From Stentor roeselii (lineage: Eukaryota > Ciliophora > Heterotrichea > Heterotrichida > Stentoridae), in assembly GCA_006503475.1 (NCBI GenBank), contig RSEH01000013.1, forward strand, positions 124,001 through 188,000: a DNA stretch of 64,000 nucleotides, read 5' to 3'. Numbering within the stretch: position 1 is the stretch's first letter; each line of letters starts with the position of its first letter. The position numbers and the translations under genes are program-made. The notes beneath the pieces are model-generated. The model had not been told where the DNA came from, made no database searches, and worked only from the letters and a program-made list of their open reading frames with translations. Shown here one piece after another: positions 4,400 through 25,783 of the stretch.

Positions 4400-5548
4400 T
4401 TAATGAATTAATTTCATTCTACTTCCAAGTTCTCTCAACAAGAAATGAGTCTGTTCAATGTTGAGTCTCGGGTCACACAAAGTTTCATATTTTTCTGGAA
4501 GTTGTGCTTCTTGCACAGTAAGACCAATACATTCAGTGACTTCTTTAAAAGCTGACTCTAAATGAACCCCAGCGAGAACAGCAGAGTTTTCAGTTAAGAC
4601 CTCGAAGACAGTCTGAACTTCAGTGACGAGTGTGTCGAGATTACGAGTTTTGAAGCCGTTGGCTGATTTGTAAGTATTCGCATGGACAGGGTCAACAACA
4701 AAGGCGACATTGAGAGACTCTTGCTTTACAGTCTGGACTATTCCTGGCAGTTGTGACCTGATGTTATTGACTCCCAGTCTTAAAATCAAGACTATCTTTC
4801 CCAGTTCATTACTCGGGTTGAGTTTTTTCACAATAGTCACCAAGTCCGGCAGACTTGCATTGGGGCCGACTTTGATGCCTAAAGGATTAGAAACGACTGA
4901 AAGCATCTCCACATGTCCACTGCCTACTTTTCTCGTCCTCTCACCCAGCCAAAGGAAGTGCCCAGAGACGTTCAATATTCCTTCTGAAGTCTCATGAGTC
5001 ATCGCGTCTTCGTATTTCACATGAAGGGCCTCGTGAGATGTGAAGACTTTTCCAGGAAGAGATGAAAGTTCTTTATACACTGCAGCTGTGCAGTGATAAC
5101 CTTGAGTCAGTCTTTCAGGGTCAGCTTTTCGATTGTCTGGAGAAATGTCGTTTATCAGGTCGCCTCGGTAACTGGGCACTTGGACTCCGTTTATCGTTTC
5201 GAATGGTTCTGACCTGGGCTTGCTGAACTGTCCTGCGATTCTAGCCACGAGAATCACTGGCTTCTCGAGGATTCCTTCTAGGAGTTCCTTATAGCCGTTA
5301 TAAACTCGTAATTTTTCTTGGATTGTTTCGGGAATGCAATCTGCGAAGGCCTCAGCGCAGTCACCGATTTGAAGGATGAAATGAGTTCCTGTAGATGCTT
5401 GAGTGATCAAGGACTTTAAAGCGTTTAGTTCTGAGAAATTGATGAATCCGGGTTGGGATTTTAAATGAGTTAGGACTTGGTCTAGGTGTTCCTGGTTGTC
5501 GTATTCTACTTGTTGGACACTTGGAAGCTGAAGCCAGGGCCTGTTCAT
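4400..5548 (-). CDS. Class II 3-deoxy-7-phosphoheptulonate (DAHP) synthase
   Basis: The enzyme joins phosphoenolpyruvate and erythrose-4-phosphate, the first step of the shikimate route to aromatic compounds. The 382-residue protein carries the class II (plant/bacterial) signature: QIGDCAEAF near residue 60 (metal-ligand Cys64), RIAGQFSKPRSEPFE, YRGDLIN, LGERTRKVGSGHVE, NPLGIKVGPNA, DPVHANT near 285 (metal His), GVHLES near 326 (Glu ligand) and CDPRLN near 356 (Asp ligand). All four expected metal ligands are present, so it looks active. It is shorter than plant enzymes and closer in length to compact bacterial ones. Start context is AATATAAAT-ATG. The gene sits 7 nt after the channel gene's stop and abuts the coiled-coil gene. 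It matches its neighbours in composition, so it is not a contaminating fragment; origin by transfer is possible but untested. Confidence 0.9.
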   Translation of the reverse strand: MNRPWLQLPSVQQVEYDNQEHLDQVLTHLKSQPGFINFSELNALKSLITQASTGTHFILQIGDCAEAFADCIPETIQEKLRVYNGYKELLEGILEKPVILVARIAGQFSKPRSEPFETINGVQVPSYRGDLINDISPDNRKADPERLTQGYHCTAAVYKELSSLPGKVFTSHEALHVKYEDAMTHETSEGILNVSGHFLWLGERTRKVGSGHVEMLSVVSNPLGIKVGPNASLPDLVTIVKKLNPSNELGKIVLILRLGVNNIRSQLPGIVQTVKQESLNVAFVVDPVHANTYKSANGFKTRNLDTLVTEVQTVFEVLTENSAVLAGVHLESAFKEVTECIGLTVQEAQLPEKYETLCDPRLNIEQTHFLLRELGSRMKLIH

Positions 5549-5555
5549 ATTTATA

Positions 5556-7571
5556 TTATTTCTTTATTTGTGGCAAGGGAGGGAGTGATTTTCTTGACTT
5601 CCTCAAACTATCTCCCAGATGTTTTCTCAAAGAAGAACTCGTTAAAATCTTCTCATATTCCTCAATCTTATCATGAATCCATCTTACTGTGTATTGAACC
5701 TCTTCATCCAAATAAGTCTGTTCATTAAGAGCCCTTTGCTGTGCAGTATTTTTTTTAAGTTTAGGCTCACCAGCTAGCTGATTAAAAGTTCTTTCTTTTC
5801 GCACTTCTACTTTTCCAAGAACATCAACCAATTCCTTCTTACATTTAATAATTCTCTTTTTCCTTTCAATAGCAAGATTTTTGATATCAATAGCAATAGC
5901 AGGGTACTTCTCCATCATATACTCAAACAAGTTTTTACTCATAGTCAGAAATTCAGAGTCCTTCTGAGCAGCGACACTGAACTCTCTTGGAGTATTTTCA
6001 ATAAGTTCAATTTCCCCAAAGTAACTTCCTTGAATCATGACCTTAAAGATCCTTTTCGTTTTTCCATAAATAAAGCAAACTCTTCCAGTTTTAATGAAAT
6101 ACATCTCATCAGCATATTGATGTTTTTCATATATCAAGTTTCTTTTCGCTATTTTTAGAAGGTTTAACATCGGAACAATGTCAGAGACGAAACTTTGATC
6201 TTTACTTACAAAAAAAGTGATGTTTTTTATCGCATTTTCGTACATCAAGGTAGCCATCTCGAATCTCAGCCCTTTTGAAAGCTTTTGAACGAGAGATACT
6301 CTTTCCTCGTCATTGAGACTTGTAGCTCTTAGTGCTTGTTTCACTTGGTTGCTTATTTCAATTGAAATCTTCTGAGGAAGTTTTGTTTCTTCTGCAAAGA
6401 TCTGGATAAGGCTTAGCTTTTCATTGATAAAAGCTTGTTTTTGGTCGAGAGATGATAGAACTGAGGATAAGTTTCCAACGACGAAGGAATAAAAACCGAT
6501 TCCGTAGACCATCCAGGTCATTGCGATAAGCTTTTCGATTACTGTTACTGGGAAAATGTCGCCGAAACCAACTGTTGTTAACACTGTGCAGATGAAGTAA
6601 AGGCTCGTTAGGTATAGGGTTGAATGGTCTTCGTCTTGAAGGTTCTTTCGGACTACCCAGGTGTCAGGCTCAAAGTTATCAATTTTACTTGAAAGAAACC
6701 AAATACAGGCAAAAAAATGAGTCATTAAAAGAACAGCGAATAAACCTCCCAGAAGTCGTGTTATTCCTTGATGTGTTTTCAAAAAACTAAAAGTATTTGT
6801 TTCTGCCAAGATTTTAAATATTTTTCCTATCTTTTTCGCTCTGACCACTCGTATTATCCTCAAAAGTCTAATAAATTTGATCGAACGATTACTTGGGTCC
6901 GAAGTTCCTGATTCCAACATGAAACTAAATGGAAGAATTGTGATAATATCAACAAGTAGCCATCCAAACAAATAATTCAAAAAAACTTTAAACCTAGACC
7001 TCACAATAACCTTGTCTTTATCATAATAAGAGCTATTCAAAGTAATAAGAATATCAACCAAAAACACACAATCAGCTAAAGTTTCAATAAAAAACCATCG
7101 ATTCCCAACCTGAACCTCTTCAAACGCCATGATCCAAGGCATCAAAGTAAAAGTATACAAAACAAACACAAAAACAACAAAACTCCAAAAAGTATGAATT
7201 TTTGAGTCAGGATGAAATAAATAATTTTCTTTACTTTTCACTTGAACGTCCTGGTACTTCTCAATCATCAAAACTTTTTCATGCATGATTTCTTTAAGAT
7301 TCGCTTTATAAGTGTTGTTTGCATCAAAAAGAACTGAACCTGTTCCATAAGTTCTGATCTCTTCAAGCATCTTGTGCCAAAGACGGAATCCTCGAAACCG
7401 GATAAGAGCCCTTCTGAAGATTTCAGAGTATTTCTTTGATGGAGGCGTGCAGGACAGGACGTAATTTCGTCTTCTTTGGGTCAATCCTTCTAAGTTAACA
7501 AAAGGTGAGTTTTCTGTTGCACGAGTTTTTTCAGGATCTTCTGGTTTTGATTCTAATTCTTTAGGATACAT
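5556..7571 (-). CDS. Voltage-gated cation (K+-type) channel with cyclic-nucleotide-binding domain
   Basis: The 671-residue protein has the layout of eukaryotic CNBD channels (HCN/EAG/plant KAT group). There are six membrane segments (S1 about 118-140). S4 has regularly spaced basic residues, 'IKFIRLLRIIRVVRAKK', about 229-246. The pore helix and selectivity filter are 'TVLTTVGFGD', about 331-336. A C-linker follows. The cyclic-nucleotide-binding fold is about 455-570, with phosphate-cassette-like 'SYFGEIELIENTPREFS'. The GFGD filter predicts potassium selectivity. Whether the cassette binds cAMP/cGMP is unclear, because the usual 'R-T/S-A' is 'REFS'. The tail is charged. Likely site is the plasma or ciliary membrane. 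ATG context is TAATAAACA-ATG. Confidence 0.92.
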   Translation of the reverse strand: MYPKELESKPEDPEKTRATENSPFVNLEGLTQRRRNYVLSCTPPSKKYSEIFRRALIRFRGFRLWHKMLEEIRTYGTGSVLFDANNTYKANLKEIMHEKVLMIEKYQDVQVKSKENYLFHPDSKIHTFWSFVVFVFVLYTFTLMPWIMAFEEVQVGNRWFFIETLADCVFLVDILITLNSSYYDKDKVIVRSRFKVFLNYLFGWLLVDIITILPFSFMLESGTSDPSNRSIKFIRLLRIIRVVRAKKIGKIFKILAETNTFSFLKTHQGITRLLGGLFAVLLMTHFFACIWFLSSKIDNFEPDTWVVRKNLQDEDHSTLYLTSLYFICTVLTTVGFGDIFPVTVIEKLIAMTWMVYGIGFYSFVVGNLSSVLSSLDQKQAFINEKLSLIQIFAEETKLPQKISIEISNQVKQALRATSLNDEERVSLVQKLSKGLRFEMATLMYENAIKNITFFVSKDQSFVSDIVPMLNLLKIAKRNLIYEKHQYADEMYFIKTGRVCFIYGKTKRIFKVMIQGSYFGEIELIENTPREFSVAAQKDSEFLTMSKNLFEYMMEKYPAIAIDIKNLAIERKKRIIKCKKELVDVLGKVEVRKERTFNQLAGEPKLKKNTAQQRALNEQTYLDEEVQYTVRWIHDKIEEYEKILTSSSLRKHLGDSLRKSRKSLPPLPQIKK

Positions 7572-10123: not shown

Positions 10124-11260
10124 ATGGGAAAAAGCAAGTTCTGTGACTTGTGTTGTGAAGGTCTTCGATTGTTTTATTGCTCCTGTGAACAAATATTTAT
10201 TTGCCAGAATTGTAAAGAGAAGCATGAAAATCATGTGATTTTCGAGGCTGAAATGAAAGAAGTTGACTTTAGCATTTTGTCTGAGAGAACGATTAATGAA
10301 GATGTTGTCAAACATTTAGAAAAACTTTTAAATATTGTTGTTGAGTTTAAACAGCGACTTGAAAATGCAGACCCAGAAAATCCTCCGAAAGAATTATTGA
10401 ATATTAAGATTACTTACACTTATTTACGAGAATTTTTGAATGTGCTTTTTAGAAATCAATCTCTTGATTCTTTAGTTTATCTTCCTGATAGAGAAAATAA
10501 TATTTACTGTTTTAACATTAGAACCAGGGAGACATCAGATACAAATATTACTATTGATGGAAATATCAAAGGACCTTTTTGGGTGTTAGAATGGAAAAAT
10601 TTTTTAGTGATTTTAGGAGGAATACGAGGAAATTCTATCAGTGATAAGATTTATCTTGCTGAAAAAACTAGTGGAGATGTTACTACTTTTTCTTCTTTAC
10701 CCAGTGGGTTAAGTGGAGGATTCACTCCTGTTATTTATGAGGATTTTCTGTATATTATTGGAGGAAGGGTCAAAAAAGGGATGAAAAAAATTCCAACGAA
10801 GGAAGTTCTTGTTTTAAATTTGAATACTGGAAGATTTGAAATGAGTTTGAAAATGTGCAATGAAAGAACAGAGGTTTCAGCTTGTGTTGCGAATAATATT
10901 CTTTTTGTTATATCGCCTGATTGTCCTGGTACTATTGAAATGAAGAACTTGGGGGATAATAGCGACTTTTCTAACTATGAAACGAATGATGAGGTCTTAA
11001 AAGGAGCGGCTTGTCTTTACAGTTATCAAAATGTATTGTTTTTGTTTAAGGACTACAAAATTTTTAAATGTAGAGATATAGAAAATTTGGAATTTGAAGT
11101 GGAAACTGTAGTCGAAGAGATTTTAGATAGTGAGGGTTCTGAGAAATGGAATAATATTAGACCACCTTATGTTGATAACAATTTTACTGCTTTCTTTAAT
11201 GAAAGATTGTTTTTTTTGTTCAATCAAAGGAATGATGTAGAGACTTTTTCTTATCGTTAG
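10124..11260 (+). CDS. B-box zinc finger and Kelch-repeat protein
   Basis: The 378-residue protein begins MGKSKFCDLCCEGLRLFYC. The Cys/His spacing CxxC...CxC...CxxC...HxxxH (residues about 7-38) is a B-box-type zinc site. After a helical linker, residues about 130-370 form Kelch-like propeller blades with 'FLVILGGIRGNS' and 'FLYIIGGRVKKG', the Gly-Gly blade signature. B-box/coil/propeller proteins are a large family in ciliates and usually act as scaffolds or ligase adaptors; no RING is present, so ligase activity is not implied. The start at 10124 is preferred over an in-frame ATG 51 nt upstream, because GATTATAAA directly precedes it and the zinc site begins at once. Confidence 0.8.
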   Translation: MGKSKFCDLCCEGLRLFYCSCEQIFICQNCKEKHENHVIFEAEMKEVDFSILSERTINEDVVKHLEKLLNIVVEFKQRLENADPENPPKELLNIKITYTYLREFLNVLFRNQSLDSLVYLPDRENNIYCFNIRTRETSDTNITIDGNIKGPFWVLEWKNFLVILGGIRGNSISDKIYLAEKTSGDVTTFSSLPSGLSGGFTPVIYEDFLYIIGGRVKKGMKKIPTKEVLVLNLNTGRFEMSLKMCNERTEVSACVANNILFVISPDCPGTIEMKNLGDNSDFSNYETNDEVLKGAACLYSYQNVLFLFKDYKIFKCRDIENLEFEVETVVEEILDSEGSEKWNNIRPPYVDNNFTAFFNERLFFLFNQRNDVETFSYR

Positions 11261-11540: not shown

Positions 11541-14500
11541 ATGACAGAATTGATCCAAGGTCTCTGTGATTGTCTGATTGCTTTCAGCATTACTACCTAT
11601 ACCTGCCAATCATCTTCCTATTACTTACTCTTCTCATTGTTCCTTCATTCAAGCAAGATGTTTTTAAAAATCCAGAAGCCCATCTGTTATCTTTTTCTGA
11701 TGATCCCAAGCAGCGCATTATTCCTTTTGAAGCTTTCACTATTATTGACAGGGTATCAAAGTGAAATAACCGACTGGGTGATATCAAGTTCCGAGTCCTG
11801 GCATTCAATGCTTCCAGATATATTAGTCTTGTTTTGTTCATCAGGAGGTTTAATATCATCTCAATTTTCTCTTCCCTTGCCTACCTTTTCCTATTCAGAC
11901 TCAATCATCATAAGTGTAATGATGATCTACAGTGGTTTGGCCTTGTCTTCAATGGGCTTTGTCATGCTTTTAACCTCTCTTTCCATGATAGTTTTAAAGC
12001 AGGTCTTCAGACAGTCAGACATTCCTTATATTTACTCCTTCGGGTTTTCTTTGTCTTACTTAGAAGTTCTGACGCCTTTTTTGCAGTTCACGCTTGGGCA
12101 GTCTGAACGATTTGACATCTTTGAAAATCCAGAATATCATGATCTGGTCAGATGCCTTTTAATACTGATTTATGTGCTCTGTGGAATGAACTTAACTGAA
12201 AAAAAGATAGATTTCCCTGAAGCTCGTCAAAAACTACTGAAAGATGAAGATAACGAGATGAGTTTCTTTGAAAAGGTTAGAATTTTAGTGATTTATATTC
12301 TTACAGTAAGCCTTCTTTGGGGCTGGATCATGAAATTTCAAGGACTTGAGAGACTTGTGTACATGTTCTGGATTTTTTACTCAATCATGGAAAAAAACAA
12401 TGAAAAAATTCATAAAATTTCTAAGTTTTTACTTATCCCAAGTCTAGCCCTGGCGCAGCCTGTTTATTATATTTTGGCTCTTGGAAAAAACGATTCAGAA
12501 AATGAAATTATTAAAAACTTCTTCTTCATGGCAATGACTCAATGTTGTGTTTCCATCTGGACTCACTGCAGTAGTTCAATGACTGCTGAAAGTGACGTCT
12601 GGAGCTCAATTCATGGAGTTTATTTGACTTGGATATTGAAAAAGTTTTACATCATTTCTTTGATTGTTCTTTTCTTGGTGGGACTTTCAGATATCAATAT
12701 TTTATACACTGGACTCATGGCTTTTTGCATTTGGTTCATGTTGGACCCTGCAGCTTTGAAAAAATACTGGAAAATACTGCTTTTATATGAAATGCTTATT
12801 TTGATGGTTAGAGGACTTTGGATTTTTCTTTTACCTTTCATACCGAAATTTCAAACGGCTTCGAAAATTATTGGACTTCCGACTAATTATGACTTGAGTA
12901 TTTATGATTACCTCTTGTGGATTCTGCTTTTGACTACAAGTATACAGCAAGTCGCAAGTCAAATAGAATTAGAAAAAAATGAACAAATATCGAAATTTTT
13001 AGGGATTTTGGATTCTATTTATAATTTGGTTTCTCAGTTTGAGGTCTGGGTCATGTATTTTTTGCTGCTGATAATTCAAACCCTTGGAGTCGTGAATTAC
13101 TTAAATTCTATAAGACTAGTAATAACACTACTGGTGATTTTCAAGCACCTATCAAACATCCGACAGAAAATAATTCTCAACTATACAGGAGTTTACCATT
13201 TGTTAGTAGTCCTCGAGGTATACTCAGGACTACTTCTCGCAATTCGATACGTTTACCAGTTCTTAAAATTCATTCCTTCCGCAGACCATCTCGAATTTCC
13301 CAACATCGGTTTCCAAATCTACGAAGTAAAAGAACTTTATCAAAGCACTGCCACTGACTGCATTTTACTTATCGCTTCAGTCTTCGCTTCAAGAAACTGC
13401 AAAAGACTTTCTGAGTACTGTGATGTAACTGGTAAGAAAATCAAGTACAAGATCTTCAAGAAGTACTTTTCAAATCCTTTTATTTACATTGTCTTGATTT
13501 CCGCTTTTGTTAATGCGACTTTAGGGCAGGTCTCAGTGATGATGATGATAAATGTTGTTGCGATTTGTGTTTATCAGATAATCACTGCAAGTTATTTCGT
13601 TAATCATTCGAAAGGTGTTCTGGAAAGGAGTAAATTAATCGAATGGGAAAAAAGAGCTCTTTTGTGGAGGTTTTTATTTGTTTCAACGATTTTTTCAATT
13701 TTTTTGTCGTATTTCGCTTTTTTGGTGAATAGGTCTTATTTGGAGGACTGGGTGTTGAATGGCTTGGAGTTCTTATTGAAAAATTTAGGGTTTTCTAAGG
13801 ACTTTAGCAGTGTTTTAGATGAGGCTAAGTTCAATCTCACTTTTTTGCTTTTGTTAGTCGTTGAAAGGCATTGTTTGCAGTATAATATGCCCTCGACTCA
13901 GAAAAAACCTGAAAAAGTGCCGAATAAGGAAGCTTTTAAAAAGTTTATTAACTTTATACGAGTGTTAAACTTACTCAAGTCTATTTTTGAAGCACTTATA
14001 CCTGTGTTCTTTTTAATGATTGCTTTTTATAGATTGGATTTTATTGCGTTTTTGTATGTTAGCTTGATTTTTATTAGCTTTTGCACTCGCGAACTGATTC
14101 ATCCGAAGTTTTTGTTTGTTTCGGCGAGTGTTTTAACTGTTATTGGCTACTTTTTTGCGTGTTCGAAGTATTTCTTGGTGTATTTTCAGTTTTACTATCA
14201 GAAAGAATTTGTTATCTTGAGTGATTGGCTCATCACCTACATCAGCCTGCTAAACCTATCAACAACAGAATCCCAGCTAATCCTATACGAGCTCCTAACA
14301 GAGTTATTCATGTTAGTCTACTTTTACTACCTAAGCTACCGTGAAAAGCAATTGCTAGAAATCGAAGAAAAATACAAACTTTTCTCATCAAACCTTCAAG
14401 ACACCTTCGATGACGACCGACGAAATTCCAGTTGGAAGTCAAATTTAAAAAACCTTTTAATCCACACGAAAAAAGGTTTTTACCTTGTCTCCCGTTACCT

Positions 14501-17500
14501 TCTAGTCGGAATCGCTCTTCTATTCATAACCCAGAGCATCGGTCTTCTTTCAACCTTTTACTACATCTTCCTATTGATCTTCATCTTGAAAGAAATAAGC
14601 ATCTACCTGAACAAAAACATTACATCTTACATAAAACTCGTTACTTTCTTCCTCAGATTTCTAATCTTTGACCTGACCTTGCAAATCTTCATTCAAATCC
14701 CGCTTTCCTTATACTCTGACCAATCTCTTGAAAAATGGTGCAAATGTATCGGCCTTGTTAAACTCACTGGAGCCAGTTCTGAAGTTTCTTCTAACTTGAC
14801 AACTATTTTATTTAAAATTTACACTTTTTTAGTCGTTTTGATGCTTCAGAGAATGATGAAAAGCAAGGACTATGAAGAGTTTCTTTGCAAGTTTTTTAGG
14901 GAATTTGAGGAAAAATCGAAGAAGATTTCTGAAGAAATGACTGAACATTTTAATAATGAAAGGATTAAAATGAATAAGTTTTATGCTGAGTCTAATCAGA
15001 GGTTTGAAGGTGAGTTGAAGAAAATTGAAGTGAATATTGAGACATGGAAGAAGAATTTTCAGACTCACTTTAAAAGAGGGATGAACAAAGGAGATAGGAC
15101 TTATACGAACATCACTATGAAAAATGAGGAGGTGGATGAAGAAAAGACTGTAAGAAAAAATGCTGGGTTTAAATCAAAGTTCAATTCTTTCTTGGTTTCT
15201 TTTGTGGACCCTTATTTATTCAAAAATTTTATAAAGAAAATCACTGTCATTAACTATTCATTCGATGCAGCTCCAAGAAAAAACCCAAGATTTTCTATTA
15301 CAAGAAGAGCATCAAGAAGAAATACAGATAAAAACTTATTTCCTCGATCATCTGTTGTTTCATTTGAAAGAAGGTCAAGACAGCTTGAAGTTCTTCAAGA
15401 AAAAATAGAAAATTCTGATGATTCTTCTAGTTCAGATGATTCTAGTTCATCAAGTTCAGACACCGGTTCAAATCTTTCAGTGCAGTCAGTGAAAGAGATA
15501 AAGTTTCAAGACAGTATCGAGAAAGAAGAGATAGAATATGACATCAAGTTTCAAGACTACTTTTTACTCTTCATCTACTCCTTAGCAAGTAACACAGAGT
15601 CGATAGTTTATCTGACTTTTTTTATAAACAACTGGATGTACTGCAGTCTTGAGTCACTTGTTTTCCCTTTGTCAGCCCTCAGTTATGGAATGATTTTATA
15701 CCCAAGACCACCTTCGAAGTACTTTAGAGTAATGCTTTATTACACTGAATTCGTATTTTTTATCAAACTCATGGTGCAGTTGGAAGTTTGGAGTATCGCT
15801 TTTGGTTATGAATTCTTAAAAGACTTTAAAGATCCTTTTAAAGTCGGATTCAACTTGGCGAAGAATACTCACAGTGGCTCTTTGTTTAACTATATCTTCT
15901 GGGATGTTATCGTGATTGTTGCTCTACTTTTGCATAATTTCTATTTGATCAAAGTTGGCTTCTGGAGCTGCACTGAAACTGAAATCGAGAGTTTAAATGA
16001 AGCAAAAGAACGACTTGGTCTTAAGTCAAGACAAACTTTCAAGAAAGAAGTGAAAAAACAGTCCTTAATTGAAAACCTCTTGCCAAGCAGCAAAGAGGAA
16101 AAGCCAGGTAGAGACTTTTACTTCATCGCAATAACAGCGCAAATGGTCATTCTAGTTTACATTTTCTGTTTTTTCACTCAGATGGACGGAAACTCGCAAG
16201 ACATCTCTCAAGCCATCAGAGCCAACCAGTTCCAAGGCCGAATGATTGTAGTTCTATTGATCCAGATGTCATTAATCATCATCGAGAGGTACTTTTATGT
16301 AAGTCGAACTTCACAGGCACTGACTGAAGCTCAAAAAACAAAAGAATCAATCACGAATTCAACTCCAGTAGCAAGATATCGAAGCTCTACAGCTTATGGA
16401 ACTGAAATTTCTTCAAGACTTCCAAGGCCTGGGTCTGGAATTATCACTTTTAACTTTAAGGAGACTTTGATTCAGAATGAAAAAAGCAAGTCAGGTGTTA
16501 GGTTCCCTCCATTGTTGAGGATTATTGTTTTTTTGTCGTTGCTTTTTGCTGTTCATTTGATTGTGTTTTTTTACCTTCCTTTCAATGGAAATTTTTCAAG
16601 TAATGGAGAGATTTATTGTAGAGAGAAGGAATCTCGTTGTAATGATTTTGAAAAAAATTCGTATATTCAGGGGTTTTATGTGTTGTACTTGGTTTATCTG
16701 ATTATCACAGCCATGCAGATTAAGTATAGTCTTCCCAGTTTCTCGAAAGTGACTTTTCCTTTGATGAGGGATCCAGGGGCTTCGAATTATTATTTGTTTC
16801 TTGCTTATCGATCCGCTCCTTTTTTGTTTGAAATAAGGACCTTGATGGACTGGACCTTCTCCAACACTGCCCTCACGATTTTTCAATGGTTTAAGTTTGA
16901 AGACATATACGCTCAGTTATTTATAAACGAATGCTACCAAAAATCAATGAACTTCAAAGCTCACGGTGAAAAAATCGCTCGAAAACAGAAGTTTTTCATG
17001 GGTGTTTGCGGTTTATTCATTATTCTCGTGATTATCTTTATCCCATTGCTTGTCTTCAGCAGTATAAACCCAGTAAATGAATCAAACCCAGTTTATTCCG
17101 CAAGTATCAACTTAGACTTGGCGTTAAAAGACAGAAGATTCGAGTTGTACTCAGTGAAATCATCAGAAAAAATAGAAGAAGTACATCGAGACGCATGGGA
17201 AGACCTGTACAAGTTCAACGAAATTCACCAGTTGAGTTCTTCTGATCAGCCTCACATGCAGAAGGTCACAATGCCTGTCGATTCTGACCAGGTCTGGCTC
17301 ATCACACCTCCTAACAAGAAAAAACTCTGTCAAATGATTCAAGATTCTAAAAACGAGACAGCCCAAGCTGGACTTTTAATGAGATACTCGTTTTTCCGAC
17401 GCTTTCCAGTCACGAAAACTGAAGTCACTTTGACTGTCAACAAAATGATTGAGAAAAGCACACTAATTGACTTCGAAGAAGTGATTTGTCTTGGTAAAAA

Positions 17501-18023
17501 CTCTTCAATACTTGTTCCCAAGGTTTTCGATGACTTGATTCGACTTCCAAGTAGTGGAGATGAAATATACCCGATCATTATTCAAGATGAAAGGTTTTCA
17601 AGTGACTTGTTTTTGACTTTAGACGTGGAAGAAGGTTTAAGATGGTGGAAGTTGAGTACTTTGAATCATTTCGGTAAGACTGAAGGTGTCAGTTTTTTTA
17701 CAGTTTCAGATTCTTACAGCTTTGTCACTCTTAACTTCTCGATTCTGACTTTTTATATCTCTGTTGTTTACTTTGTAGGAACACTGATCAAGTATGTCAC
17801 GAAAGGGTCTGGAAGGAATGTGGTCATGACTGATATGAAAAATACTAAAGACTTGCAGGTTTTGTGTGAAGGAATTTATATCAGTCGCATGATTGGGAAG
17901 TTAAAGGAAGAAGAAGAACTTTATTTTGAATTATTGGACATTTTAAGGTCTCCGGAGATCACGAAGATGATTACTGGAAGTTCTTCTATTAAGCAAGAGG
18001 AAAATGATAAGAAAAATAGGTAG
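11541..18023 (+). CDS. PIEZO: Piezo-type mechanosensitive cation channel, copy A
   Basis: The 2160-residue protein has dozens of hydrophobic segments, the size and layout of a Piezo trimer subunit. Diagnostic C-terminal features are in order. The anchor is 'APFLFEIRTLMDWTFSNTA' near residue 1760, the Piezo PFEW-type motif, followed by 'FKFEDIYAQLFI'. The outer helix is near 1815-1830. The extracellular cap is about 1840-2055, with 'VWLITPPNKKKLCQM'. The inner pore helix is 'FSILTFYISVVYFVGTLIKY' near 2060-2085. The cytosolic end has 'LYFELLDILRSPEITKMI'. An acidic Ser/Asp-rich loop lies near 1293-1315. Piezo channels open under membrane tension and pass cations including calcium, which fits a contractile touch-sensitive ciliate. 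No intron is seen. From about 15,490 to the stop the DNA is nearly identical to copy B; the 5' half is clearly diverged. The start AATAAAG-ATG matches copy B. Confidence 0.93.
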   Translation: MTELIQGLCDCLIAFSITTYTCQSSSYYLLFSLFLHSSKMFLKIQKPICYLFLMIPSSALFLLKLSLLLTGYQSEITDWVISSSESWHSMLPDILVLFCSSGGLISSQFSLPLPTFSYSDSIIISVMMIYSGLALSSMGFVMLLTSLSMIVLKQVFRQSDIPYIYSFGFSLSYLEVLTPFLQFTLGQSERFDIFENPEYHDLVRCLLILIYVLCGMNLTEKKIDFPEARQKLLKDEDNEMSFFEKVRILVIYILTVSLLWGWIMKFQGLERLVYMFWIFYSIMEKNNEKIHKISKFLLIPSLALAQPVYYILALGKNDSENEIIKNFFFMAMTQCCVSIWTHCSSSMTAESDVWSSIHGVYLTWILKKFYIISLIVLFLVGLSDINILYTGLMAFCIWFMLDPAALKKYWKILLLYEMLILMVRGLWIFLLPFIPKFQTASKIIGLPTNYDLSIYDYLLWILLLTTSIQQVASQIELEKNEQISKFLGILDSIYNLVSQFEVWVMYFLLLIIQTLGVVNYLNSIRLVITLLVIFKHLSNIRQKIILNYTGVYHLLVVLEVYSGLLLAIRYVYQFLKFIPSADHLEFPNIGFQIYEVKELYQSTATDCILLIASVFASRNCKRLSEYCDVTGKKIKYKIFKKYFSNPFIYIVLISAFVNATLGQVSVMMMINVVAICVYQIITASYFVNHSKGVLERSKLIEWEKRALLWRFLFVSTIFSIFLSYFAFLVNRSYLEDWVLNGLEFLLKNLGFSKDFSSVLDEAKFNLTFLLLLVVERHCLQYNMPSTQKKPEKVPNKEAFKKFINFIRVLNLLKSIFEALIPVFFLMIAFYRLDFIAFLYVSLIFISFCTRELIHPKFLFVSASVLTVIGYFFACSKYFLVYFQFYYQKEFVILSDWLITYISLLNLSTTESQLILYELLTELFMLVYFYYLSYREKQLLEIEEKYKLFSSNLQDTFDDDRRNSSWKSNLKNLLIHTKKGFYLVSRYLLVGIALLFITQSIGLLSTFYYIFLLIFILKEISIYLNKNITSYIKLVTFFLRFLIFDLTLQIFIQIPLSLYSDQSLEKWCKCIGLVKLTGASSEVSSNLTTILFKIYTFLVVLMLQRMMKSKDYEEFLCKFFREFEEKSKKISEEMTEHFNNERIKMNKFYAESNQRFEGELKKIEVNIETWKKNFQTHFKRGMNKGDRTYTNITMKNEEVDEEKTVRKNAGFKSKFNSFLVSFVDPYLFKNFIKKITVINYSFDAAPRKNPRFSITRRASRRNTDKNLFPRSSVVSFERRSRQLEVLQEKIENSDDSSSSDDSSSSSSDTGSNLSVQSVKEIKFQDSIEKEEIEYDIKFQDYFLLFIYSLASNTESIVYLTFFINNWMYCSLESLVFPLSALSYGMILYPRPPSKYFRVMLYYTEFVFFIKLMVQLEVWSIAFGYEFLKDFKDPFKVGFNLAKNTHSGSLFNYIFWDVIVIVALLLHNFYLIKVGFWSCTETEIESLNEAKERLGLKSRQTFKKEVKKQSLIENLLPSSKEEKPGRDFYFIAITAQMVILVYIFCFFTQMDGNSQDISQAIRANQFQGRMIVVLLIQMSLIIIERYFYVSRTSQALTEAQKTKESITNSTPVARYRSSTAYGTEISSRLPRPGSGIITFNFKETLIQNEKSKSGVRFPPLLRIIVFLSLLFAVHLIVFFYLPFNGNFSSNGEIYCREKESRCNDFEKNSYIQGFYVLYLVYLIITAMQIKYSLPSFSKVTFPLMRDPGASNYYLFLAYRSAPFLFEIRTLMDWTFSNTALTIFQWFKFEDIYAQLFINECYQKSMNFKAHGEKIARKQKFFMGVCGLFIILVIIFIPLLVFSSINPVNESNPVYSASINLDLALKDRRFELYSVKSSEKIEEVHRDAWEDLYKFNEIHQLSSSDQPHMQKVTMPVDSDQVWLITPPNKKKLCQMIQDSKNETAQAGLLMRYSFFRRFPVTKTEVTLTVNKMIEKSTLIDFEEVICLGKNSSILVPKVFDDLIRLPSSGDEIYPIIIQDERFSSDLFLTLDVEEGLRWWKLSTLNHFGKTEGVSFFTVSDSYSFVTLNFSILTFYISVVYFVGTLIKYVTKGSGRNVVMTDMKNTKDLQVLCEGIYISRMIGKLKEEEELYFELLDILRSPEITKMITGSSSIKQEENDKKNR

Positions 18024-19306
18024 AAGTTTAGCTAAAGGTTGATTGATTAATTTTTTCATATTTTTTTAGAGTAGTAGAAGTGATATATCATTGATTCTTG
18101 CTTTAATTATCGATTTTTATTTCAAGGGTATTTGATAATTCAATAGAATATATCATGTTAAAACTTCTAAGTTCGAACCATGCGATATCATACTTTTAAA
18201 CAAGAAATTACATCTCGTTCTTAAATATTTGTAGAGTTATATCTAATTATTCAAGCTACTTAAAAACTATTTAGTGGATGTTTCCTTGTTAAATAAAATT
18301 TCAAAGTTATATTGTGAATTTTCATTTGGGCTAAGGCATGATTATGATTTTTTCTGAGTTTAGATCTTGCAATAAATATTATTCTTTTATTTTTATTAGA
18401 TATACACTTGTAAGGGATGGTGTTCGTTTTTAACTATTTCATGTGCCAATATGATTTGATTAATCTTATCTTTTAATTTTTTTTGCGTTTTATATTTTCT
18501 TCTAGTTATTTTCGTGTTTGAACTTGATTGAAATCTTTATACATTCACATTATAGCATAGTTAGGAGTAGTTTATCAAAAAATCATGTCTCTGTATTATC
18601 TATAACATATATATAATAGTGTTTTTCCAAATATGAGATGAATTAATACTTAAAAGGGGTATTATCTTCAAACTTCAGAATGTATTGTTTTGGTAAATAC
18701 ATGTAAAGTTTGAAAAAGAAATAATGCTGCAAGATATTAAAGATTTGTGGAATTTAAGATATAGAGTTATCACAGGATCCCTGATGTTGATGATGATAAT
18801 GATGTTGATGATGAATGATGTTGATGATGAATTTACTACTTAATAAAATGAAAATATGCTGTGTATAATAAGCATGAGATTTATAGATAGTTTTATTCTT
18901 ATTGTTAAAAAAACTCATTATAAGATTAAACGCAGTTTCTTACTTATAATTTTATCTGTTTTCTCTTCTTCTTCATGAGGTGTTTTCAGACTAAAAATTT
19001 ATTTTCAAGCTGAGAAATTACTATATCATCTGCCATAATATTTTAACTTTATCATTATTTGAAGTTCGTCACGAATGTCCTATGAAAAACTCAAGCTTGA
19101 AATAGTAAATGAAACTTTCCCTACTTTAAATCATTCTAATAACATCAAATGAAACTTTACTTAACTTGAACTCATTCTAATAGAAATTTGAAAATTCAAA
19201 CCTTAAACTCACTCTTATGAGACTTTCTTTAAAGTTTTGTCTATTTAAGAAAGTTTAAATTCAAAATTAAGATAGTATAAAAACTTCTGAAATATCTACA
19301 ATAAAG
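18024..19306. other. Intergenic region between the Piezo copies (1283 nt)
   Basis: The DNA is AT-rich with no frame I can support. The first 30 nt after the stop still resemble the sequence after copy B's stop, so the homology passes the coding end slightly. An impure GATGTT/GATGAT microsatellite lies at about 18782-18832. Around 19105-19225 a short motif like AATGAAACTTT...CATTCTAATA recurs three times. The last 60 nt hold the presumed promoter of copy B. Confidence 0.6.
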
Positions 19307-22300
19307 ATGAAAGTATTGATCCAAGGTATCTGTGATAGCATGATCGCATTTAGCATCGCCACCTTTGCCTGCCAATCATCATCAATATACTTACTAGCTT
19401 CCCTAGTGCTTCAATCAAGTAAAATTCTCTCAAGAGTGCACAAGCCCAGCTGCTATACCTTCTTGATGGTGACGAGTTTCATATTGTTTTCAATGAAGAT
19501 AGTTCTAGCTGTATCAGGGTACCAAAGCTTAGTAACCGACTGGGTAATGACGAGTTTTGAGTCCTGGAATTCACTTTTGCCTGACCTTTTAGTCCTAATA
19601 TTTTCATTGGTCGGTTTAATTTCATCACAAATTCCATTACCATTAATAACCTTCCCGTACTTTGAAATTATCATCATTGGTGGGATTATGGTTTACAGTA
19701 CCTTGACCCTTTCAATAATTGGTTTAGTGATGTATGTAGTAGCGTTGGCTACTATAATTGCAAAGCAGGTCTTTAGATGCTCAGATGTTTCTTGGATCTT
19801 CTCTTGTGGGTTCACTTTATCCTATTTAGAAATACTATCGCCTTACTTTCAATTCATTTTAACTCAGTCTGGACCTTCTAATATCTTCGAAAATCCAGGC
19901 TTTAATAGTCTCGTAAAATTTCCTTTGTTACTTATTCATGTCATGTGTGGAATGAGCATGGTTGAAAATAAAATTTATTTACCAGAGGGCCGTGAGCACC
20001 TATTACCAAAAGCAGATAAAAAACTGAGTCTTTTCAAAATATTTAAAATTTTAGGGTTTTATTCTCTGACAGTGAGCTTGTTATGGGGCTGGATCATGAA
20101 ATTTCAAGGACTTGAACGATTTGTTTATATGTTTTGGATCTTTTACTCAATCATGGAAAAAAACTATTCAAAAATTTATCAAATTTCAAGATATTTGCTT
20201 ATCCCAAGTTTAGCTTTGGCTCAATCAATTTATTACTTTTTGGCCTTGGTGGAAAATGATTCGCGATCTGAAATGATTGAAAAGTTTGGCTTTATGGCAG
20301 TGACTCAGTTTTTTGTGTCTGTTTGGACTGATTGCTGTGGTTCGATGACTGATCAAAGTAATGTCTGGAGATCGATTCATGGAGTTTATTTGACTTGGAT
20401 TGCGAAAAGGTTTTATATCATTTCTTTGATTGTATTGTTTTTGGTTGGCCTTTCAGATATCAATATTTTGTGCACTGGACTCATGGCCTTTTGCATCTGG
20501 TTCATGCTAGACCCGACTGGGTTAAAAAAGTATTGGAAAATACTTCTTTTATATGAAATGTTTATTCTTTTTATTAGAGTAATTTGGGTTTTTCTATTGC
20601 CGTTTGTGTCAAATTTTCAAATGGCTTCGAAAATCATTGGGCTTCCAACTAATGATGAATTTACCATTTATGATTACCTTTTGTGGCTTTTACTCTTAAC
20701 AACAAGTATACAACAAGTTGCAAGCAATATTGAATTAGAAACAGATGAAAAAATATCGAAATTTCTGCATGCTCTGGATTCTGTTTATAACTTTGTCTCT
20801 CATTTTGAGATCTGGGTGATATACTCTTTGCTAATGATAATTCAAACACTAGGAGTAGTGAACTACTTAAATTCAATAAGATTCGGTATAACCTTAATTG
20901 TGATTTTTAAGCATCTATCAAACCTTCGACAAAAAATTCTTCTTAATTATCTCGGAGTCTATAATATATTAGTCATCCTCGAAGTCTACTCAGGCTTACT
21001 TCTTGCAATTCGATACGTTTATCAATTCTTAAAGTTCATTCCTTCTGCAGAGCACCTCGAATTTCCCAGTATCGGTTTACAGATCTATGATTTCAAAGAA
21101 TTTTATCAAAGTACTGCAGCAGATTGCATCTTGTTTATCGCTTCTGTATTTGCTTCAAGGAACTGCAAAAGACTATCAGAATACTGTGATGTGAGTGGAA
21201 AGAAAATCAAATATAAATTCTTTAAGAAGTACTTCTCTAACCCCTTTGTTTATGTTGTGATGATTTTCGCATTCTTTAATGCAACTTTAGGATTGGTTTC
21301 TGTAGTGATGATGATCAATTTAGTAACAATAAGTGCTTATCAGATAAGCAGTGCAAGTTATTTCAATGATTATTCAAAAGGTGTTATTGAAAGAAGTAAA
21401 GTTACTGAATGGGAAAAAAGAGCTACTTTGTGGAAGATTTTGTTTTTCTCAACGATTTCTTCTCTTTTTTTGTGTTATTTTACGTTTTTGGTGAACGGGT
21501 CGTATATGGAATCTTGGCTGTTAAATATTTTGGAGTTTTTACTGAAGAATTTAGGATTTTCAAAAGATTTCAGCAGTATGCTTGATCAGGCTAAGTTAAA
21601 CTTCGTTTTCCTGCTTTTATTAATTATTGAAAGACATTGTTTGCAGTTTAATATGCCATCTACTTATAAAAAACCAGAAAAAATTCCAATTAAAGAAGAA
21701 TATAAAAGGTTTATAAATTTCATTCGAGTTTTGAACCTTTTTAAATCGATATTTGAAGCACTTATCCCTGCGTTCTTTTTGATGATTGCTTTCTATAGAT
21801 TGGATTTCATTGCTTATTTGTATGTAAGCTTGATTTTTATCAGCTTTTGCACTCGCGACTTGATTCATACTAAGTTTCTATTCATTTCGATGAATATTTT
21901 AACTGTCGGTCAGTACTTTTTTATAAGTTCAAAGAATTTCTTATCACTTTTTAAGGATTATTACGAGAAAGAATTTACTGTTATAAGTAATTGGCTCAGT
22001 GATTACATAAACCCTTCAAATCTCAGAACAACAGAATCCAACCTCCTCCTATACGAGCTGCAATTCGAGATATTCATTCTAATTTACTTCCACTATCTTA
22101 GCTACCGTGAGAAGCATCTTCTCGAAACTGAATCAAAATACCTAAAGCTCTCATCAAACCTTCAAGATACAATCGATGAAGGCCACCGTAATTCAAATTG
22201 GAAATCAAATCTAAAAAGTTTTTTAATCCACTCAAAAAAAAGTTTTTATCTAATCTCTCGATACCTTTTAGTAGGTGTAGCCCTTCTCTTCATCACCCAA

Positions 22301-25300
22301 AGCATCGGTCTCCTTTCTACCTTTTACTACATCTTCCTGCTGATTTTCATATCAAAAGAAATCAGCATCTACCTCAACAAAAGCATAGCATCTTATTTAA
22401 ACCTCGTCACTTTCTTCATCAGGTTCTTGACACTTGACCTTACCTTACAAATTTTCATTCAAATCCCGCTTTCCTTATACTCTGACCCTTCTCTTGAAAA
22501 ATGGTGCAAATGTATCGGCCTTGTTAAAATAACTGGCTCTAGTCCTGAGGTTTCTTTGAATTTTACAGCGATTTTATTTAAAATTTACACTTTTTTAGTT
22601 GTTTTAATGCTTCAAAGAATGATGAAAAGTAGAGATTATGAAGAGTTTCTTTATAAGTTTTTTAGAGAATTTGAGGAAAAATCGAAGAAGATTTCTGAAG
22701 AAATGACTGAACATTTTAATAATGAACGGATTAAAATGAATAAGTTTTATGCTGAGTCTAATCAAAGATTTGAAGGCGAGTTGAAGAAAATTGAGGCAAA
22801 TATTCAGACTTGGAAGAAAAGATATCAAACTTACTTTAAACGTGGGGTTAATCAAGGAGATAAGACTTTAATGAACATGACCATAAGACATGATGAAGCA
22901 GATGAAAATAAAAGCACAGGAAAAATAATTGGGTTTAAATCAAAGTTCAATTCTTTCTTGGTTTCATTTGTGGACCCTTATTTATTCAAGAATTTTATAA
23001 AGAAAATAACTGTTGTTAACTATTCTTTTGATTCTGGAACAAATAAATATACTCGGCCTTCAAGAGCCAAAAGAAATACAACGAAATTGTCTGATAAGAG
23101 TTTATATACTAAGCCATTAACTGCTTCATTTGCAAGAAAGTCGCATAGACTTATTGTTCTTCATGAAAAACCAGAGGATTCTGAATTGTCTGCATCTTCA
23201 GACACTTCGAATTCAGATGATTCAAGTTCTAATCTTTCAGTGAAGTCAGTGAAAGAGATAAAGTTCCAAGACAGTATCGAGAAAGAAGAGATAGAATACG
23301 ACATCAAGTTTCAAGACTATTTTTTACTCTTCATCTACTCCTTAGCAAGTAATACAGAGTCGATAGTTTATCTGACTTTTTTCATAAACAACTGGATGTA
23401 CTGCAGTCTTGAGTCACTTGTTTTCCCTTTGTCAGCCCTCAGTTATGGAATGATTTTATACCCAAGACCACCTTCGAAGTACTTCAGAGTCATGCTTTAT
23501 TACACTGAATTCGTATTTTTTATCAAACTCATGGTTCAGTTGGAAGTCTGGAGTATCGCTTTCGGTTATGAATTCTTAAAAGACTTTAAAGACCCTTTTA
23601 AAGTCGGATTCAACTTGGCGAAGAACACTCACAGTGGCTCTTTGTTTAACTATATCCTCTGGGATGTTATAGTGATTGTTGTTCTACTTTTGCATAATTT
23701 CTATTTGATCAAAGTCGGCTTCTGGAGCTGCACTGAAACTGAAATCGAGAGTTTAAATGAAGCAAAAGAACGACTTGGTCTTAAGTCAAGACAAACTTTC
23801 AAGAAAGAAGTGAAAAAACAGTCCTTAATTGAAAACCTCTTGCCAAGCAGCAAAGAGGAAAAGCCAGGTAGAGACTTTTACTTCATCGCAATAACAGCGC
23901 AAATGGTCATTCTAGTTTACATTTTCTGTTTTTTCACTCAGATGGACGGAAACTCGCAAGACATCTCTCAAGCCATCAGAGCCAACCAGTTCCAAGGCCG
24001 AATGATTGTAGTTCTATTGATCCAGATGTCATTAATCATCATCGAGAGGTACTTTTATGTAAGTCGAACTTCACAGGCACTGACTGAAGCTCAAAAAACA
24101 AAAGAATCAATCACGAATTCAACTCCAGTAGCAAGATATCGAAGCTCTACAGCTTATGGAACTGAAATTTCTTCAAGACTTCCAAGGCCTGGGTCTGGAA
24201 TTATCACTTTTAACTTTAAGGAGACTTTGATTCAGAATGAAAAAAGCAAGTCAGGTGTTAGGTTCCCTCCATTGTTGAGGATTATTGTTTTTTTGTCGTT
24301 GCTTTTTGCTGTTCATTTGATTGTGTTTTTTTACCTTCCTTTCAATGGAAATTTTTCAAGTAATGGAGAGATTTATTGTAGAGAGAAGGAATCTCGTTGT
24401 AATGATTTTGAAAAAAATTCGTATATTCAGGGGTTTTATGTGTTGTACTTGGTTTATCTGATTATCACAGCCATGCAGATTAAGTATAGTCTTCCCAGTT
24501 TCTCGAAAGTGACTTTTCCTTTGATGAGGGATCCAGGGGCTTCGAATTATTATTTGTTTCTTGCTTATCGATCCGCTCCTTTTTTGTTTGAAATAAGGAC
24601 CTTGATGGACTGGACCTTCTCCAACACTGCCCTCACGATTTTTCAATGGTTTAAGTTTGAAGACATATACGCTCAGTTATTTATAAACGAATGCTACCAA
24701 AAATCAATGAACTTCAAAGCTCACGGTGAAAAAATCGCTCGAAAACAGAAGTTTTTCATGGGTGTTTGCGGTTTATTCATTATTCTCGTGATTATCTTTA
24801 TCCCATTGCTTGTCTTCAGCAGTATAAACCCAGTAAATGAATCAAACCCAGTTTATTCCGCAAGTATCAACTTAGACTTGGCGTTAAAAGACAGAAGATT
24901 CGAGTTGTACTCAGTGAAATCATCAGAAAAAATAGAAGAAGTACATCGAGACGCATGGGAAGACCTGTACAAGTTCAACGAAATTCACCAGTTGAGTTCT
25001 TCTGATCAGCCTCACATGCAGAAGGTCACAATGCCTGTCGATTCTGACCAGGTCTGGCTCATCACACCTCCTAACAAGAAAAAACTCTGTCAAATGATTC
25101 AAGATTCTAAAAACGAGACAGCCCAAGCTGGACTTTTAATGAGATACTCGTTTTTCCGACGCTTTCCAGTCACGAAAACTGAAGTCACTTTGACTGTCAA
25201 CAAAATGATTGAGAAAAGCACACTAATTGACTTCGAAGAAGTGATTTGTCTTGGTAAAAACTCTTCAATACTTGTTCCCAAGGTTTTCGATGACTTGATT

Positions 25301-25783
25301 CGACTTCCAAGCAGTGGAGATGAAATATACCCGATCATCATTCAAGATGAAAGGTTTTCAAGTGACTTGTTTTTGACTTTAGACGTGGAAGAAGGTTTAA
25401 GATGGTGGAAGTTGAGTACTTTGAATCATTTCGGTAAGACTGAAGGTGTCAGTTTTTTTACAGTTTCAGATTCTTACAGCTTTGTCACTCTTAACTTCTC
25501 GATTCTGACTTTTTATATCTCTGTTGTTTACTTTGTAGGAACACTGATCAAGTATGTCACGAAAGGGTCTGGAAGGAATGTGGTCATGACTGATATGAAA
25601 AATACTAAAGACTTGCAGGTTTTGTGTGAAGGAATTTATATCAGTCGCATGATTGGAAATTTAAAGGAAGAAGAAGAACTTTATTTTGAATTGTTGGACA
25701 TTTTAAGGTCTCCGGAGATCACGAAGATGATTACTGGAAGTTCTTCTATTAAACAAGAGGAAATCGATAAGAAATATAGGTAA
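19307..25783 (+). CDS. PIEZO: Piezo-type mechanosensitive cation channel, copy B
   Basis: The 2158-residue protein is collinear with copy A over its whole length, with the same 'LWGWIMKFQGLER' and 'SLIVLFLVGLSDIN' blade segments. The N-terminal 1300 residues (blades) show many substitutions. From residue about 1312 onward (beam/anchor/cap/pore) it differs from copy A by only a handful of residues. The acidic loop is shorter (SASSDTSNSDDSSSNLS). It is intact, with start context ACAATAAAG-ATG. Both copies are complete, so each subunit could form homotrimers. Mixed trimers are conceivable because the trimerising C-terminal module is the same; that is inference. Confidence 0.93.
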   Translation: MKVLIQGICDSMIAFSIATFACQSSSIYLLASLVLQSSKILSRVHKPSCYTFLMVTSFILFSMKIVLAVSGYQSLVTDWVMTSFESWNSLLPDLLVLIFSLVGLISSQIPLPLITFPYFEIIIIGGIMVYSTLTLSIIGLVMYVVALATIIAKQVFRCSDVSWIFSCGFTLSYLEILSPYFQFILTQSGPSNIFENPGFNSLVKFPLLLIHVMCGMSMVENKIYLPEGREHLLPKADKKLSLFKIFKILGFYSLTVSLLWGWIMKFQGLERFVYMFWIFYSIMEKNYSKIYQISRYLLIPSLALAQSIYYFLALVENDSRSEMIEKFGFMAVTQFFVSVWTDCCGSMTDQSNVWRSIHGVYLTWIAKRFYIISLIVLFLVGLSDINILCTGLMAFCIWFMLDPTGLKKYWKILLLYEMFILFIRVIWVFLLPFVSNFQMASKIIGLPTNDEFTIYDYLLWLLLLTTSIQQVASNIELETDEKISKFLHALDSVYNFVSHFEIWVIYSLLMIIQTLGVVNYLNSIRFGITLIVIFKHLSNLRQKILLNYLGVYNILVILEVYSGLLLAIRYVYQFLKFIPSAEHLEFPSIGLQIYDFKEFYQSTAADCILFIASVFASRNCKRLSEYCDVSGKKIKYKFFKKYFSNPFVYVVMIFAFFNATLGLVSVVMMINLVTISAYQISSASYFNDYSKGVIERSKVTEWEKRATLWKILFFSTISSLFLCYFTFLVNGSYMESWLLNILEFLLKNLGFSKDFSSMLDQAKLNFVFLLLLIIERHCLQFNMPSTYKKPEKIPIKEEYKRFINFIRVLNLFKSIFEALIPAFFLMIAFYRLDFIAYLYVSLIFISFCTRDLIHTKFLFISMNILTVGQYFFISSKNFLSLFKDYYEKEFTVISNWLSDYINPSNLRTTESNLLLYELQFEIFILIYFHYLSYREKHLLETESKYLKLSSNLQDTIDEGHRNSNWKSNLKSFLIHSKKSFYLISRYLLVGVALLFITQSIGLLSTFYYIFLLIFISKEISIYLNKSIASYLNLVTFFIRFLTLDLTLQIFIQIPLSLYSDPSLEKWCKCIGLVKITGSSPEVSLNFTAILFKIYTFLVVLMLQRMMKSRDYEEFLYKFFREFEEKSKKISEEMTEHFNNERIKMNKFYAESNQRFEGELKKIEANIQTWKKRYQTYFKRGVNQGDKTLMNMTIRHDEADENKSTGKIIGFKSKFNSFLVSFVDPYLFKNFIKKITVVNYSFDSGTNKYTRPSRAKRNTTKLSDKSLYTKPLTASFARKSHRLIVLHEKPEDSELSASSDTSNSDDSSSNLSVKSVKEIKFQDSIEKEEIEYDIKFQDYFLLFIYSLASNTESIVYLTFFINNWMYCSLESLVFPLSALSYGMILYPRPPSKYFRVMLYYTEFVFFIKLMVQLEVWSIAFGYEFLKDFKDPFKVGFNLAKNTHSGSLFNYILWDVIVIVVLLLHNFYLIKVGFWSCTETEIESLNEAKERLGLKSRQTFKKEVKKQSLIENLLPSSKEEKPGRDFYFIAITAQMVILVYIFCFFTQMDGNSQDISQAIRANQFQGRMIVVLLIQMSLIIIERYFYVSRTSQALTEAQKTKESITNSTPVARYRSSTAYGTEISSRLPRPGSGIITFNFKETLIQNEKSKSGVRFPPLLRIIVFLSLLFAVHLIVFFYLPFNGNFSSNGEIYCREKESRCNDFEKNSYIQGFYVLYLVYLIITAMQIKYSLPSFSKVTFPLMRDPGASNYYLFLAYRSAPFLFEIRTLMDWTFSNTALTIFQWFKFEDIYAQLFINECYQKSMNFKAHGEKIARKQKFFMGVCGLFIILVIIFIPLLVFSSINPVNESNPVYSASINLDLALKDRRFELYSVKSSEKIEEVHRDAWEDLYKFNEIHQLSSSDQPHMQKVTMPVDSDQVWLITPPNKKKLCQMIQDSKNETAQAGLLMRYSFFRRFPVTKTEVTLTVNKMIEKSTLIDFEEVICLGKNSSILVPKVFDDLIRLPSSGDEIYPIIIQDERFSSDLFLTLDVEEGLRWWKLSTLNHFGKTEGVSFFTVSDSYSFVTLNFSILTFYISVVYFVGTLIKYVTKGSGRNVVMTDMKNTKDLQVLCEGIYISRMIGNLKEEEELYFELLDILRSPEITKMITGSSSIKQEEIDKKYR

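Follow-up and report, generated by a model that had tools for sequence, protein, structure and literature searches.

The window analysed here is a 64,000-nucleotide (nt) stretch of Stentor roeselii DNA, positions 124001–188000 of the 248,360 nt contig C59, and it contains two predicted Piezo genes in tandem. Searches beyond the window covered the 44.4 Mb assembly of 522 contigs. Piezo gene A (11541..18023, + strand) encodes 2160 amino acids (aa) with no internal stop, and Piezo gene B (19307..25783, + strand), a tandem copy of A, encodes 2158 aa; both are defined by their open reading frames and by Pfam matches. The genes are situated head to tail on one strand with 1283 nt between them (spacer, 18024..19306, +), and both open reading frames are uninterrupted. 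A sequence-only reading of this DNA had described two complete head-to-tail Piezo genes, in agreement with the two intact same-strand frames and their Piezo domains. A and B are the only homologous pair in the window (open reading frames of at least 120 aa, E 1e-8). A search of gene A for a 15-nt GTA..TAG intron candidate found none.

Three Pfam families score above the curated cut-off in both A and B: THU_Piezo1 (A residues 1350–1475), Piezo_THU9_anchor (best stretch, A residues 1658–1840) and Piezo_cap (A residues 1888–2146). The assembly carries at least seven Piezo genes among the best candidates: A, B, two on contig C440, and those of contigs C460, C519 and C70. A profile of five of these seven paralogues matches Piezo1/2 structures with a best E-value of 1.2e-62. 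In chain 8yez_A the THU_Piezo1 unit of this profile aligns to residues 1683–1810 and the portion from the anchor to the C-terminus aligns to residues 2029–2513; residues 1954–2027, between the two, show a weak match when taken alone. The THU_Piezo1 unit adjoins THU9 on the N-terminal side and corresponds to THU8 in the usual numbering. Piezo channels consist of a single chain of about 2000–2800 aa, and the A and B products (2160 and 2158 aa, one chain each) fall inside this range. Judged by their predicted products, A and B are classed as Piezo genes.

A mosaic of diverged and homogenised DNA

The blade-coding part of the pair, A 11541..14687 (B 19307–22453, +), is diverged, with 75.2% nt identity. 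Nonsynonymous (dN) and synonymous (dS) divergence are 0.18 and 1.15 by NG86 (rounded from 0.177 and 1.153) and 0.187 and 0.766 by YN00, and the silent sites are close to saturation. The ratio dN/dS is 0.15 (NG86) or 0.24 (YN00); the A–B pair is under purifying selection. A relative-rate test on the blades places more changes on B with five of five outgroups, and chi-square exceeds 3.84 with two of the five. The blade is followed by a patch of lower divergence (14688..15000, +) and by a fast-evolving serine/acidic loop (15001..15483, +). The loop is 69.9% identical in nt sequence, shows a dS of 0.82 (NG86) or 1.18 (YN00) over 15001–15470, and forms the 5′ edge of a homogenised block.

The block has three parts. 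In the outer 5′ part, A 15484..15956 (B 23244–23716, +), there are 16 differences, of which 14 are silent. The core, A 15957..17551 (+), is identical to B over 1595 nt; the copy in B occupies 23717..25311 (+), and the match is 100% over positions 1–1595 at both places. The 3′ part, A 17552..18023 (B 25312–25783, +), shows nine differences up to the stop, seven of them in the last 127 nt. The sequence-only reading had reported about 16 mostly silent differences ahead of 15957, none from 15957 to 17551 and few thereafter, and all three counts hold. The 16 differences fall in 15506–15956 and comprise exactly 14 silent and two replacement changes, with one further replacement at 15483. The many differing positions claimed upstream are also borne out. 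However, the upstream "indels" reduce to a single 6-nt length change in the codon alignment (15438–15443, within the serine/acidic loop, where compensating gaps could escape such an alignment). Likewise the constant offset of 7760 nt applies to the 3′ part, but upstream the offset is 7766.

Silent differences were counted over degenerate codons, i.e. codons with a synonymous choice, that code for the same residue in A and B. They number 290 of 708 in 11550–14687, 14 of 148 in 15484–15956, 0 of 512 in 15957–17549 and 5 of 148 from 17550 to the stop. Corresponding NG86 dS values in the block are 0.174 (15484–15954), 0 (15957–17549) and 0.067 (17550–18020). Thus dS along the alignment, which the sequence-only reading had named as a check, is not uniform and ranges from 1.15 in the blade to 0 in the core. 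The identical run spans 512 degenerate codons; the longest run in any of 10,000 shuffles is 65. In an optimal partition, breaks at 14688 and 15957 appear whichever of three penalties is used, and one at 17550 appears under the mildest only. The partition merges the patch, the loop and the outer 5′ part into one segment (53/332), and the 15484 edge is taken from the list of differences instead. By Fisher tests on silent differences, the outer 5′ part differs from the core (p = 5e-10), as does the 3′ part (p = 5e-4). These parts therefore differ in age from the core, and at least two events are needed. Transitions make up 19 of the 25 differences left in the block versus 504 of 948 in the blade, and a predominance of transitions is the pattern expected of young divergence.

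The block starts near A residue 1315, about 30 residues ahead of the THU_Piezo1 unit, and contains this unit (THU8), THU9, the anchor, the cap, the pore and the C-terminal domain. The earlier description of the shared segment as anchor, cap, pore and C-terminal module is correct in that all four are inside, but two blade units, the THU_Piezo1 unit and THU9, are inside as well. Some 3.9 of the 6.5 kb are diverged and the homogenised portion is one module. The outcome, diverged blades on a shared 3′ module, is as that description had it: two different blades on one pore. Since the pair is under purifying selection, the cell now appears to combine one pore module with a pair of distinct force-sensing blades.

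The smaller patch upstream of the loop, A 14688..15000 (B 22454–22766, +), had been placed at 14850–15030 and called near-identical. A low-divergence patch does exist, but its bounds are 14688–15000 and its nt identity is 91.1%. In the patch 12 of 90 degenerate codons differ versus 317 of 800 elsewhere upstream of 15475. Its lowest 60-codon window (eight differences) is reached in 51 of 10,000 shuffles. In 50-codon windows the patch shows dS values of 0.32 and 0.44, and other windows with 88–92% protein identity show 0.56, 1.18 and saturation. As similarly conserved windows have a higher dS, protein constraint alone does not yield the patch. The patch is probably the beam helix. This label draws on Piezo anatomy, on a charged, helix-like sequence and on a location immediately ahead of the long loop N-terminal to THU8.

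The block is bounded on both sides. At the 3′ bound, identity falls from 98% in the last part of the block to 30 of 46 columns (about 65%) in the first ~45 nt past the stops, where the spacer resembles the DNA 3′ of B; beyond this the spacer is unalignable. The 30 of 46 columns are reached in one of 300 shuffles, so the similarity past the stops appears to be a remnant of homology. Upstream of the starts there is a weak likeness in the nearest ~30 nt only (20 of 32 columns, reached in 3 of 300 shuffles). Further out, no similarity above chance is found in either flank. At the 5′ bound is the serine/acidic loop with its 6-nt length difference. Other matches of the flanks and spacer within the window are few and weak. 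The best is a 90 nt match of the spacer with 10956–11045 (71%, E = 0.002), and a 49-nt stretch upstream matches 63524–63567 (E = 3e-4); neither of these longer matches is at a corresponding place.

The other Piezo genes of the assembly show how far constraint alone conserves the same regions. They give 20 pairs besides A–B; any one gene belongs to several of these, so the pairs are not statistically independent. The fraction of same-residue codons that are identical is 0.39–0.49 in the block and 0.34–0.45 in the blade for these pairs; the A–B values are 0.98 and 0.63. Block silent sites are saturated in 20 of 20 pairs, which excludes silent constraint. Protein identity is 0.30–0.46 in the block versus 0.17–0.30 in the blade, the block being higher in 20 of 20. 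A residues 1592–1650, a loop within the block, are identical to B at 59 of 59 positions and to the other five genes at 3–10 of 59, with gaps counted as mismatches; the low count is partly due to gaps, several of the five having a shorter loop there. Since this loop is identical only in A–B, a weakly constrained stretch has been homogenised as well.

The two C440 Piezo genes (L029 and L030, ~49.6–67.4 kb) encode 2365 and 2465 aa and are divergently oriented; the roughly 3.3 kb that separates them contains a 278-aa open frame. This pair is old and without homogenisation, with 0.48 identical same-residue codons in the block and protein identities of 25% (blade) and 40% (block). In the C460 (L031) and C70 (L033) genes, a THU9-like stretch carries at one shared codon position a 15-nt GT..AG insertion that includes an in-frame TAA; the other five (A, B, C519 and both C440 genes) lack it. 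The insertion represents either a gain in the C460/C70 ancestor or a loss elsewhere. The absence of introns, together with the block's 3′ location, had also raised cDNA-mediated, 3′-biased conversion as a candidate, which is unsupported in that only two of the seven paralogues carry the 15-nt intron.

Probable gene conversion and alternative explanations

Silent divergence along A–B varies beyond what permutation gives, diverged DNA lies on both sides of the block, and local constraint does not explain the pattern. Very probably, A and B are old tandem duplicates that have undergone at least two non-allelic gene conversions, limited by the homology they retained. The pair would go back to an old tandem duplication of a single Piezo gene. 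Afterwards A and B would have exchanged DNA at least twice, at different times: in one or more older events, which reached from around 15484 almost to the stop, and in a recent event by which 15957–17551 became identical. A still older conversion over the probable beam helix is likely. The molecular step would be repair-type copying, the tandem copies serving as templates for one another. Copying would be likeliest where the copies stay alike, as in the more conserved module from THU8 to the C-terminus. Each conversion would reset the module and ease the next one, while blade and loops drift out of reach, so that the tract stops at the fast-changing serine/acidic loop on one side and where coding homology ends on the other. 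A conserved module with drifting loops could thus explain the edges without selection on the module, and is the simpler account. The sequence-only reading had the process acting on the pore module, but two blade units are included as well, and homology-limited copying would give the same ends. The earlier proposal of repeated conversion is upheld by the different ages of the three parts of the block. A recent duplication followed by fast blade evolution is ruled out by the divergence that silent sites and the non-coding flanks also show.

Several points weigh against this reading. Its support comes from one genome, and the trees that normally prove conversion would need orthologues from other species. 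The poorly conserved loop inside the block has also been homogenised, and homology alone does not set the bounds. Lastly, the statistics for the beam patch are modest (the shuffles behind the 51 of 10,000 assume exchangeable sites), and there may be a contribution from protein constraint.

Two indicators bear on the direction of transfer. Third-position GC is 0.39–0.40 in the block, nearer to the A blade (0.370) than to the B blade (0.315), and core codon usage leans to A (log ratio 18); however, in a calibration just one of six held-out blade windows went to the correct gene, too few for a donor to be named.

Selection as the cause of the pattern can be compatible with conversion as set out above. 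Under this account, pore conversions would have been retained since A and B subunits combine in trimers or are required to share their gating, and a difference in sensor tasks would have led to the loss of blade conversions. The block edge lies near a module boundary and the blades are under purifying selection, and theory together with the human red/green opsins indicates that islands of divergence can be maintained in converting duplicates (PMC3924837; this and the other papers given by PMC number are cited from excerpts). However, one edge falls at a poorly conserved loop and the other where coding homology ends, and co-expression of human PIEZO1 with PIEZO2 gave no sign of mixed channels in the excerpt of PMC6248943. 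Selection as the cause is unlikely, though it is the best placed of the alternatives.

Unequal crossing-over or partial duplication, in which the 3′ end of A came to lie behind the B blade and a third copy was lost afterwards, would equally produce two blades with one pore, and the tandem layout favours it. At least two steps are required, however. Past the stops, the DNA keeps a similarity of about 65% over 45 nt and cannot be aligned further on, and the block is of at least two ages. A segmental duplication or a simple exchange would extend its near-identity into the flanking non-coding DNA, which is not what is found at these stops, and a bounded tract is a signature of gene conversion. The sequence-only reading had offered recent conversion or unequal exchange. 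The first finds support in nearly saturated silent sites giving way to identity, in diverged flanks, in layered ages and in the absence of the pattern from all 20 other pairs; simple unequal exchange is less likely, given the fall from 98% to ~65% at the stops and to nothing ~45 nt on. Overall, an origin by crossing-over or partial duplication is improbable.

An assembly or polishing artefact, in which the consensus made the core identical or the genes are a chimera of alleles, is a further alternative to conversion, identical repeats being a classic site of such errors. The contig nevertheless crosses the 1595-nt exact repeat twice, with the 25 block differences at its two sides, and shows telomere repeats at one end. 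Among the best six matches to the core in the assembly, two are full-length and identical and four are short at 65–70%. With only two full-length copies among these candidates, no variant copy is left over. This two-copy result, taken with the differences at both sides, makes an artefact highly unlikely. The blades differ by 25% in DNA and so are not alleles.

Ciliate macronuclei divide without mitosis. One alternative is a somatic event: during vegetative growth the macronuclear cores would have become alike and assortment would have fixed this state, with the germline copies still different. It would suit an assembly that looks macronuclear (gene-dense, with telomere repeats at two of the four contig ends inspected). 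The data do not demand it and the older outer layer needs evolutionary time, leaving it a very slight chance. An account without conversion, with very strong pore constraint that includes silent sites, is next to impossible: the block protein is indeed better conserved than the blade in every other pair, but silent or mRNA-level conservation of the pore is ruled out by the saturated silent sites of the same 20 pairs and by the loop that is 59/59 in A–B alone.

Other features of the window and the assembly

An ion channel gene with a cyclic-nucleotide-binding domain (Ion_trans and cNMP_binding; 5556–7571, − strand) is situated about 4 kb from the Piezo pair. Adjoining it is a class-II DAHP synthase gene (4400–5548, − strand; PF01474, E = 7.5e-122), a shikimate-pathway enzyme, for which lateral transfer is a possibility. 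An AT-rich tandem array with units of 24 to 80 nt lies between two open reading frames at 2059–2503. A 1080-aa open reading frame, listed from a TTG (34043–37285, − strand), displays a highly charged, repetitive middle with a 111-nt tandem repeat at 35337–35617, a strong strand skew, and cysteine-pair motifs near its end; it gave no Pfam match at E 0.001.

Stentor uses the standard genetic code, and the long open reading frames of the window are open under it (table 1). In Blepharisma, by contrast, UGA is read as tryptophan; introns there are 15–16 nt and the telomere repeat is CCCTAACA (PMC9942806). The 15-nt insertions of the C460 and C70 Piezo genes resemble those 15–16-bp introns. At two of the four contig ends inspected, the end of C59 and the start of C70, (TTAGGGTG)n or its complement is found, and the TTAGGGTG repeat is a permutation of CCCTAACA. 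Such features would suit a Stentor-like heterotrich. Six Piezo genes are described in Paramecium (PMC8208649).

Comparison with known systems and significance

Mosaics of this kind are seen in other duplicates. The human red and green opsins (PMC3924837) are also neighbouring sensory paralogues with homogenised and diverged stretches; there, a diverged peak stands in a pair that is otherwise similar, whereas in A–B the diverged part is larger and near silent saturation. Tigriopus GOT1p1/GOT1p2 (PMC3728101) likewise show a mosaic of high and low divergence in duplicates under apparent ongoing conversion. They encode an aspartate transaminase and were compared across populations, whereas A–B is known from one genome. 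Non-allelic conversion in ion-channel coding DNA, pore-loop regions included, is described for salamander Nav1.4 exons 26a/26b and Nav1.1–1.3 (PMC8476164), where it affects duplicates of a single terminal exon or, between paralogues, tracts of limited length; in A–B it would involve 1.6–2.5 kb between complete channel genes. No report of gene conversion in Piezo genes was found by titles and abstract openings in the open-licence literature; one review, PMC11526382, has both terms, its content not being assessed. Partial conversion between duplicates is a known event; A–B is a large and clean example, from a channel family in which no earlier one was found.

In engineered Piezo1/Piezo2 and Piezo1/dPiezo chimeras, an N-terminal portion from one Piezo joined to a C-terminal portion from a different one can yield working, stretch-activated channels (PMC5966384, which cites the dPiezo work). 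Those chimeras are laboratory-made, with mouse junctions at 1961, 2063 and 2456; A and B are natural, with one 3′ module behind two blades. As to mixed channels, which the sequence-only reading thought a shared trimerising module would permit, variants of human PIEZO1 do form mixed trimers, and PIEZO1 with PIEZO2 showed no sign of mixing in the excerpted text (PMC6248943). By this analogy the shared module would permit mixing of A and B and is no proof of it. That one cell keeps two blades on a shared pore module through repeated conversion under selection, with A/B trimers mixing and the blade ratio tuning mechanosensitivity, is a doubtful proposition.

The finding has practical consequences. 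RNA-seq, probes and RNAi aimed at the 3′ part cannot distinguish A from B, and trees built from the conserved C-terminal domain would make the A–B duplication look far too young. Blade and pore have been studied as separable by means of chimeras; here evolution appears to have run a similar experiment and both products are kept. Thus A–B would be a natural test of the blade's own contribution.

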